Below, in pieces: positions 10,216-47,062 of a stretch of 47,062 nt of DNA (within the stretch, counting starts at the first letter, position 1; each line of letters begins with the position of its first letter). The position numbers and the translations under genes are program-made. The stretch comes from an uncultured Alphaproteobacteria bacterium. GTDB lineage: Bacteria; Pseudomonadota; Alphaproteobacteria; CAAHEQ01; UBA3637. Where the stretch lies: positions 1-47,062 of the forward strand of contig CALXXW010000020.1 in assembly GCA_944392785.1 (NCBI GenBank). The letters are read 5' to 3'. Under the pieces are notes generated by a model, which made no database searches, was not told the DNA's origin, and worked only from the letters and a program-made list of their open reading frames with translations.

Positions 10216-10221
10216 CCGACT

Positions 10222-10309
10222 CGGAAGGGCGCGGACGTAGCCTTTGGCCAGCGGGTCAGGTTCGGAAGAAAGCAGCCCAGCTTTTGTGTTGCGGGTCGCG
10301 TCCCTTCTG
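10222..10309 (+). ncRNA. ffs: Signal recognition particle RNA (4.5S, small type)
   Basis: The RNA partner of Ffh. The conserved apical part GGTTCGGAAGAAAGCAGCC (GGAA tetraloop plus Ffh-binding symmetric and asymmetric loops) is at about 10259-10277. The ends GAAGGG and CCCTTC pair, followed by CGCG / CGCG-type pairs, giving a single rod of about 88 nt. The ends are inferred from pairing and promoter position. No strong T-tract terminator is visible. Confidence 0.92.
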
Positions 10310-10341
10310 TTTTCAATAAACAGCTGTGACAGGAAATAGGT

Positions 10342-45531: not shown

Positions 45532-45608
45532 GTTCTCGTAGCTCAGCAGGATAGAGCGCAGGATTCCTAATCCTGAGGCCGTGGGTTCGACTCCCGCCGA
45601 GAACGCCA
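45532..45608 (+). tRNA. tRNA-Arg (anticodon CCT)
   Basis: A 77-nt cloverleaf with acceptor GTTCTCG / CGAGAAC, encoded CCA, D arm GCTCAGCAGGATAGAGC, T arm GGTTCGACTCC, and anticodon stem CAGGA / TCCTG enclosing loop TTCCTAA, so CCT reads AGG. Confidence 0.95.
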
Positions 45609-45623
45609 AACCGTAAAGGAATC

Positions 45624-46070
45624 ATGATGCATATACACGCAACGACGGTTTGTGATGGTAAAGATGCGCTGATGATTGTTGGTGCGTCCGGCAGTGGTAA
45701 GTCCACTTTAGCGTTGCAGTTGATCAGGCGAGGTTGGTGGCTTGTTGCGGATGATGTTTCCGTGGTGACGTGTGGTGAGGATGGCGGTTTATCTGTGTCG
45801 GCATTGCCCGAAGGGATTGGGTTGCTTGAGGTGCGAGGATTGGGTCTGTTGCAAGAAGTTCCGAATCGGCAACGAGTTGCTTTGAAGGCGTGTTTTTCTT
45901 TGGAGACGACACAGCCGCCGCGATTGCCTTTGAGCTCAAGCTCTGTTGAAATTGAAAATGTGTCAGTGCGTCAAATTTTATTTTGGGAGAAAGATTCTGC
46001 TTTGTTGGATAAAGTTCTGACAGCGTGGGATGTTATCCACAATCGCCGAGCGCTAAAGGTGATTGATTAA
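45624..46070 (+). CDS. hprK: HPr kinase/phosphorylase, short alphaproteobacterial form
   Basis: A 148-aa protein holding only the C-terminal kinase domain of HprK. Walker A GASGSGKST is at residues 20-28, followed by ADDVSVV (catalytic Asp pair) and LPEGIGLLEVRGLG, the HprK signature. It is expected to phosphorylate HPr on its regulatory Ser, which is present in the HPr gene 420 nt downstream. AAAGGAATC precedes the ATG. In many relatives rapZ sits between hprK and the EIIA gene; here it does not. Confidence 0.93.
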   Translation: MMHIHATTVCDGKDALMIVGASGSGKSTLALQLIRRGWWLVADDVSVVTCGEDGGLSVSALPEGIGLLEVRGLGLLQEVPNRQRVALKACFSLETTQPPRLPLSSSSVEIENVSVRQILFWEKDSALLDKVLTAWDVIHNRRALKVID

Positions 46071-46085
46071 AGGAAAGGAGAAAAA

Positions 46086-46487
46086 ATGATAGGAGTTGTT
46101 TTAGTATCGCATACACACTTGGCGGAAGAGATGTTGCGGGTTGTTGAACATGTTGTTGGGCCACAAACGAACGTTGCGTGTGTGGGGATTGACACCACAG
46201 ACGACATGGAACAAAAGCGGCATGAGATTTTGGAAAAGACATCGGCGGTTGATACGGGGGATGGCGTTGTTGTCATTACAGATATGTTTGGTGGGACACC
46301 GTCTAATCTGGCAATTTCCATCATGGAAGAGCGTAATATAGAAGTTGTTTCGGGGATGAATGTTCCGATGTTGGTCAAATTGATGCGCGAGCGTTCGGAA
46401 AGTGTGAATGATGCGGTTTTAGCGGCTCAAGAGGCCGGCCGTAAATATATCAACATTGCGTCGCACTTGCTCAAGATGGATACCTAA
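46086..46487 (+). CDS. PTS system mannose-type EIIA protein
   Basis: A 133-aa EIIA-Man domain protein. The phosphorylated His is residue 9 in LVSHTHLAEE, and VVVITDMFGGTPSNLAI is the family core. No sugar permease is nearby, so in Alphaproteobacteria this form is thought to act in regulatory phosphorelay with HPr rather than in sugar uptake. AAAGGAGAAAAA precedes the ATG. HPr follows 3 nt after its stop. Confidence 0.93.
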   Translation: MIGVVLVSHTHLAEEMLRVVEHVVGPQTNVACVGIDTTDDMEQKRHEILEKTSAVDTGDGVVVITDMFGGTPSNLAISIMEERNIEVVSGMNVPMLVKLMRERSESVNDAVLAAQEAGRKYINIASHLLKMDT

Positions 46488-46490
46488 AGA

Positions 46491-46763
46491 ATGCGTGCAG
46501 CCATAGAGATTCAAATTCAGAACTTAAAAGGATTGCATGCTCGAGCGACGGCAGCATTTGTCAAATGCGCTGAGTCATTTGAATCTGAAATTACGGTTAT
46601 CAAGAAGGATGGACAATCAGCGTCGGGTAAGTCAATTATGGGATTGCTGATGTTGGCGATACCCTTGGGGGAGAGGATAGTCATTACAGCCGATGGGTCT
46701 GATGCCGAGGCAGCTATACAGGCACTGATCAAGTTGATTGACAATCGATTCGGTGAAGATTGA
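46491..46763 (+). CDS. ptsH: Phosphocarrier protein HPr
   Basis: A 90-aa HPr. The phosphocarrier His is residue 16 in GLHARAT; the regulatory Ser for HprK is residue 48 in SGKSIMGLLML. It closes the hprK-EIIA-HPr group; EI (ptsI/ptsP) is not in the window. It starts 3 nt after the EIIA gene without a strong ribosome binding site, so translation is probably coupled. Confidence 0.95.
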   Translation: MRAAIEIQIQNLKGLHARATAAFVKCAESFESEITVIKKDGQSASGKSIMGLLMLAIPLGERIVITADGSDAEAAIQALIKLIDNRFGED

Positions 46764-46786: not shown

Positions 46787-46814
46787 AAAGCCGTCACGTT
46801 CATGTGATGGCTTT
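46787..46814 (+). terminator. Terminator after ptsH
   Basis: AAAGCCGTCAC and GTGATGGCTTT pair with one wobble around a 6-nt loop. The T run afterwards is short. Confidence 0.6.
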
Positions 46815-46887
46815 ATTTGCATGTTAAAAGATGTTCTGTTTATCAAGTAAAAATAGCCTTGAAAAGCGCGGATTTCCGGGAAAAAAG

Positions 46888-46919
46888 TGTCACAAAAAAA
46901 CGATCCTTTTTTTGTGACA
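46888..46919. repeat. Palindrome copy 1 with A7/T7 arms
   Basis: TGTCACAAAAAAA and its exact complement flank CGATCC. On the minus strand the repeat begins at the expected transcription start of the promoter at 46922-46950 and is followed by T6. A second copy has its centre exactly 135 bp to the right. Confidence 0.85.
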
Positions 46920-46921
46920 AC

Positions 46922-46950
46922 TTTTTAGCACATCTACCCCACCGTGTCAA
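46922..46950 (-). promoter_or_regulatory. Minus-strand promoter firing into palindrome copy 1
   Basis: On the minus strand TTGACA, 17 nt, TAAAAA. Transcripts would start around 46915 and run straight into the hairpin. Confidence 0.5.
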
Positions 46951-47017
46951 GCATAATTTTTATGACGAATTATCAATAGGATAATACCTATTTTTATCCC
47001 ATCATCAAATGGTCCCG

Positions 47018-47059
47018 AAAACTGTCACAAAAAAAGGATCCTTTTTTTGTGACAGTTTT
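47018..47059. repeat. Palindrome copy 2, perfect 42 bp
   Basis: A perfect inverted repeat centred on GGATCC: AAAACTGTCAC, A7, GGATCC, T7, GTGACAGTTTT. It lies at the window edge, so further copies to the right cannot be seen. Confidence 0.85.
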
Positions 47060-47062
47060 TTG

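Follow-up and report, generated by a model that had tools for sequence, protein, structure and literature searches.

An Mpi-type invertible-promoter system with pilin-like targets predicted from paired palindromes in an uncultured alphaproteobacterium

Two near-identical long palindromes stand at the right-hand edge of contig C20 of an uncultured alphaproteobacterium, and the question they raise is what such a pair does there. The window analyzed here is that complete contig (47,062 bp), one of 25 in a genome of 1,124,423 bp (G000). The initial annotation of this DNA took the first palindrome to resemble a terminator or an operator at +1 of an adjoining promoter, and named hairpin RNAs, a partition or replication site, or a mobile repeat family as options. 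Our analysis suggests instead that positions 46888–47059 are, with high probability, one cassette of a multi-locus invertible-promoter (phase-variation) system that would employ an Mpi-type invertase and have pilin-like targets. The evidence consists of the copies of the site, their pairing, their place upstream of pilin-like genes, both orientations of the intervening segment, re-paired half-sites in relatives and an invertase gene, all of which are observed directly.

Results

The palindrome pair and its promoter

The features of the locus, from left to right, are as follows.

46836–46887, no strand: distal flank CTGTTTATCAAGTAAAAATAGCCTTGAAAAGCGCGGATTTCCGGGAAAAAAG, in part common to other cassettes of the genome
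46888–46919, no strand: putative distal recombination site (copy 1), TGTCACAAAAAAACGATCCTTTTTTTGTGACA, a palindrome with an arm of 16 and one C/C mismatched pair beside the GATC core
46904–47038, no strand: predicted invertible segment, core to core, 135 bp, read as OFF; its direction is that of C1, C2 and C4, and the C5 copy matches only as the reverse complement
46922–46950, minus strand: promoter, with −35 TTGACA at 46945–46950, −10 TAAAAA at 46922–46927 and a 17-bp spacer
47023–47054, no strand: core site of the putative proximal recombination site (copy 2), within a perfect 42-bp palindrome at 47018–47059 with an arm of 22
47055–47062, plus strand: start of the gene-side flank GTTTTTTG, the same bases that stand ahead of the pilin ATG at C1, C2, C4 and C5, followed by the contig end

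The coordinates and palindromy of the 32-bp and 42-bp inverted repeats agree with those annotated initially, as does the spacing of exactly 135 bp between their centers (46903/46904 and 47038/47039). These are the sole palindromes in the window with arms of at least 12 and at most one mismatch, and the longest arm in 25 dinucleotide shuffles of the window is 13, compared with the 16 and 22 observed. The annotated minus-strand promoter pointing into copy 1, TTGACA-17-TAAAAA, is likewise present; its spacer ends in TGC, an extended −10, and it abuts copy 1 and reads toward lower coordinates, away from the expected gene. A simple promoter scanner missed it because the scanner demands T at the sixth −10 position, and a simple scanner labels copy 1 terminator-like on both strands. 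An Rfam search of the window gave no family match near the palindromes. As the window is the whole of C20, the sequence stops 8 bases after the copy 2 core site, and the pilin gene of this cassette would lie to the right, past the end of the contig. To the left lies a compact PTS cluster of the regulatory type (45532–46763), in which genes for a short HPr-kinase-like protein, EIIA-man and HPr come, in that order, directly after a tRNA-Arg.

Copies of the cassette and the genes that follow them

A genome-wide copy count, suggested in the initial annotation, locates the 32-bp site TGTCACAAAAAAANGATCC at 16 places in G000 (three or fewer mismatches), with none for a reversed control pattern. Fourteen of the 16 lie elsewhere in the genome, so that a picture of just two copies serving as terminators of convergent genes did not arise. 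The consensus is TGTCAC-A7-GGATCC-T7-GTGACA, a palindrome of about 32 bp. Complete pairs with a constant 135-bp spacing occur on C1, C2, C4, C5 and C20, five partial cassettes are distal halves at contig ends (C4 left, C5 left, C12, C23 and C24 left), and C22 has a lone single site; G000 thus contains several dispersed promoters, each between the same inverted repeats. Flanks such as CTGTTTATCAAG are common to several cassettes, and the similarity passes both palindromes into the flanks and the pilin gene, without discrete ends at the inverted repeats. The exact site was found neither in IMG/VR nor in other GTDB r220 genomes, a set from which this genome itself is possibly absent.

At C1, C2, C4 and C5, which are all of the complete pairs with a visible gene side, a pilin-like gene (MKKHIPTNESGRSMVEMLGVLAIMGVLSIGAVAGYRW...) starts about 40 bp past the proximal site. 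The complete open frames comprise 390–470 codons and have a prepilin-like start (Pfam N_methyl, E 0.013, below the Pfam cut-off), and the C-terminal parts of their products are variable, Cys-rich and partly EGF-like.

Contigs C4, C5, C12, C20, C23 and C24 end inside or just past cassettes, as do several in the related genome G003 and also in G004. Because so many contigs end at switch cassettes, these loci are under-represented in the assemblies, and the cassettes may account for many of the contig ends.

Both orientations at paralogous cassettes

When the cassettes are framed with the distal flank on the left and the gene on the right, direct alignment succeeds among the inner segments of C1, C2, C4 and C20, whereas the C5 segment has to be reverse-complemented to align (92 of 103 positions identical, score 81, versus −12.5 in direct alignment). 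The promoter therefore faces the pilin gene at C5 (ON) and faces away from it at the other loci (OFF). Next to the distal site, a stretch of 60 bases that includes the promoter is identical in C1, C2, C4 and C20, and the remainder of the segment is variable. The two sites at C5 are the half-site pairings expected after inversion, except for two single-base differences, one in a flank and the other in a site. Both orientations are also seen with G003:C5 and with loci L102 and L106 of the relative G015; in every case paralogous cassettes of assemblies are compared and not two states of one locus, each single locus being present in one orientation.

A promoter in both orientations relative to the adjacent gene, together with re-paired half-sites, identifies the pairs as recombination sites of an invertible promoter. 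The pairs flank that promoter in either orientation, which argues against copy 1 as a terminator or operator at +1, and the geometry fits inversion where the hairpin-RNA and the partition or replication options have no Rfam match near the palindromes to recommend them.

The single site on C22 combines an outer-distal with an outer-proximal half, the product expected from deletion, and this locus is likely a deletion product or a decayed copy. The C22 cassette (L013, G000:C22:3498–4311) has a pilin-like gene that is missing its N-terminal part.

A candidate invertase of the Mpi family

The sole small serine recombinase of G000 is encoded at C25:32552–33160 (203 aa; Resolvase and HTH_7 domains). 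It scores 301.7 bits against NCBIfam NF009949 (master DNA invertase Mpi, Bacteroides), for which the curated cut-off is 272, and is weakly similar in sequence to a structurally solved DNA invertase (4m6f, E 3e-11); most of its named relatives belong to uncultured Alphaproteobacteria from the guts and rumens of animals. The gene is neighbored by a glycosyltransferase gene on one side and a UvrD-like helicase gene on the other. The genome-wide search (three or fewer mismatches) finds zero sites on C25, and the enzyme would therefore act in trans. The initial annotation had suggested looking for a partner protein encoded next to the repeats; a recombinase gene does exist in the genome, but it is not beside them.

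Active flipping of the segments in living cells, with the C25 enzyme as its agent, is what this arrangement suggests. We consider it unlikely that the promoter is invertible and is turned by another enzyme. Other recombinase genes are present in G000, namely one for a large serine recombinase on C16 and two for tyrosine recombinases, so that candidates exist, but the latter resemble XerC and XerD, the former looks mobile-element-borne, and a small serine invertase, for which the only gene is the Mpi-family one, is the type of enzyme that suits short dyad sites whose core is palindromic. The C16 gene (L032, 563 aa) adjoins a DNA methyltransferase gene, possibly within a mobile element.

Mpi-like relatives were found in 32 of the 43 genomes of the family that served for comparison. 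An Mpi-like gene is present in all six genomes with at least five sites, and none of the 11 Mpi-negative genomes reaches that number; in the remaining 26 Mpi-positive genomes, sites of this pattern are few or absent. A strict co-occurrence of switch and invertase was accordingly rejected, the association being one-sided and not significant by genome. The link to the enzyme is one-sided because many Mpi-positive genomes lack recognizable sites before the sampled pilins.

Diverged sites in related genomes

Diverged sites number 41 in G004, 15 in G003, 15 in G021, 7 in G006 and 5 in G015, with one control match over the 43 genomes. The pair spacing in G003 and G004 is 74 bp, and because the half-sites there are not all alike they can be used as natural markers, which locate the crossover without experiment. 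OFF loci in G003 and G004 pair TGTCGC with TATACA, and CGTTTC, CGTTGC or TGTTTC with GAAACA. At G003:C5 the halves are re-paired (TGTCGC with GAAACG, TGTATA with GAAACA), the spacer is inverted, and a promoter-like TTGATT-18-TATAAA, read by eye, faces the pilin gene. The exactness of this re-pairing places the crossover in the core, and the re-paired halves of G003 and G015 together map it to a few core bases, a resolution coarser than the exact 2 bp. G003:C77 has the same distal hybrid as G003:C5 and is interrupted by a contig end. Of the 16 paired loci of G015, two (L102 and L106) have hybrid sites and a clear inversion when compared with L100, L101 and L105, and L113 is probably inverted too; at several G015 loci one site contains TT and its partner AA.

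The non-inverted state was found in 45 of 51 readable cassettes of G000, G003, G004 and G015, where the OFF label in G015 is based on an inferred promoter (binomial versus 50:50, 2e-8, with loci within a genome not fully independent). A system that is mostly OFF, with the window copy OFF as well, is our best reading of these states.

The orientations could instead be old rearrangements, fixed after homologous recombination between palindromic repeats and not the work of an active site-specific switch. The orientation does differ between loci and not within one, and none of the 15 loci examined in G004 is ON, as such a history would allow. That reading nonetheless seems quite improbable, since three lineages whose sites differ greatly in sequence all have their crossovers within the short core, the hybrid sites are intact, homologous recombination would have a rather short homology of about 32 bp to work with, and an invertase of the Mpi family is encoded.

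A scan for paired repeats before pilin genes gave a signal in G004, in G006, at many G015 loci and at some G016 loci, and was near chance for most pilins of the Mpi-negative genomes and also of G010, G013, G029, G031 and most of G032. A 50-bp repeat at G017:L255 sits between two divergent neighboring pilin genes and was not counted as a switch.

Mobile-element and terminator readings of the palindromes

A non-autonomous MITE-like element inserted by chance upstream of pilin genes would also leave near-identical copies, dispersed over one genome and ending in inverted repeats, together with common flanks such as CTGTTTATCAAG. The repeat, however, runs past the palindromes into the pilin gene, which makes the unit a duplicated gene cassette and not an element ending at the palindromes; it is positioned upstream of pilin genes wherever this can be seen, its orientation varies with exact exchange at the core, searches of other GTDB r220 genomes and IMG/VR found no exact copy, and discrete ends at the inverted repeats with a target-site duplication were not found. 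We regard such an element as very improbable: the mobile repeat family of the initial annotation holds as a description of a dispersed cassette and fails as a self-mobile element. Least credible of all is a role for the palindromes as intrinsic terminators or RNA hairpins, such as one separating the PTS genes from the gene that comes next. A scanner does rate copy 1 as terminator-like on either strand, and a long stem forms when the transcribed site is folded, but that stem is A/T-rich with three G-C pairs, and not a G+C-rich stem with a T-run downstream of genes, the two copies flank a promoter and lie between promoter and gene start, the HPr gene already has a hairpin of its own (46787–46815), the T-run past the proximal site is lost in G015, Rfam has no match at the palindromes, and the reverse-complemented segments with re-paired halves would be left unexplained.

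Discussion

In the invertible-promoter mechanism that we propose, the small Mpi-type serine recombinase from C25 would cut the two inverted, dyad-symmetric sites at their short core, and strand exchange would flip the 135-bp segment with its single promoter. In the ON state, the promoter would read through the proximal site into the gene for a prepilin-type, Cys-rich surface protein about 40 bp further on, the site hairpin would fall in the 5′ leader, and the pilin-like gene would presumably be transcribed from the cassette promoter. In the OFF state, as in the window, the promoter would read away from the gene into the distal flank; here the transcripts would run toward the PTS genes and meet the hairpin at 46787–46815. 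One trans-acting enzyme would probably serve about ten dispersed cassettes, so that the cells of a clone are proposed to express different pilin-like proteins. As the GATC core is self-complementary and directionless, it should also permit deletion (C22) and the exchange of segments from one locus to another, and the TT/AA site pairs of several G015 loci would favor inversion.

The Mpi regulon of Bacteroides fragilis, reportedly with 13 invertible promoters, resembles the present system in its curated enzyme family, in its several dispersed short invertible promoters, in its surface-structure targets and in an enzyme gene that lies apart from the switches, whereas its host belongs to the Bacteroidota and its targets are capsule operons, as opposed to an alphaproteobacterium and pilin-like targets here. 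According to PMC8375218, which cites Coyne et al. 2003, a single serine invertase acts there in trans on many invertible promoters, and the repeat motif is ARACGTTCGTN (PMC8375218); this motif was not found in the site described here, TGTCAC-A7-GGATCC-T7-GTGACA of about 32 bp. We treat the site sequence as species-specific and not as defining for Mpi-type systems, and have filed the system as Mpi-type by enzyme family and architecture, with sites and targets that appear to be new.

Hin, Gin, Cin and Pin are small serine recombinases that use short, imperfectly palindromic hix/gix-type sites with a 2-bp core, and Hin inverts a promoter; the present system shares with them the small serine recombinase and the palindrome-like short sites and, with Hin, would share promoter inversion. 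Hin-type systems are confined to a single locus, where they act in cis, and they have an asymmetric core and an enhancer bound by Fis, whereas many loci are involved here and the core AT is self-complementary. In the fim switch of E. coli and the RecV switches of Clostridioides difficile, inversion of a promoter or regulatory segment likewise controls surface structures, but the enzymes are tyrosine recombinases, and those found in G000 are only XerC- and XerD-like.

If this reading is correct, Mpi-type inversion of surface-gene promoters would reach beyond Bacteroides into uncultured Alphaproteobacteria that have relatives among the genomes from gut and rumen metagenomes, and would offer a mechanism for selecting among expanded pilin-like families. 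Literature searches, in which subscription papers were mostly outside coverage, returned no description of such switches in this lineage. We put forward tentatively, as plausible but not yet the favored view, a lineage-wide antigenic variation in genome-reduced gut Alphaproteobacteria, in which one Mpi-type enzyme would use the self-complementary cores to flip, delete and possibly exchange cassettes between loci, tens of pilin-like proteins would be available with one or few expressed at once, and each genus (G003/G004, G006, G015/G016) would have its own site dialect.

Pilin-like families in the genomes of the family range from 2 to 98 matches per genome, and are very large in G007 (51), G009 (32), G019 (98) and G027 (90). 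Because G007 and G009 have no Mpi-like gene, pilin choice in these two, if any, must work otherwise. In G000, at positions 280–1689 of L026 (C25, near 145,000), a pilin-like N terminus is apparently fused to a glycosyltransferase-like domain (AFAVDDNYALFLPVTIRSIEEHSN...), recognized by eye, and a second pilin-like gene adjoins the fusion. Elsewhere in the window, positions 10219–10315 encode the bacterial small SRP RNA.
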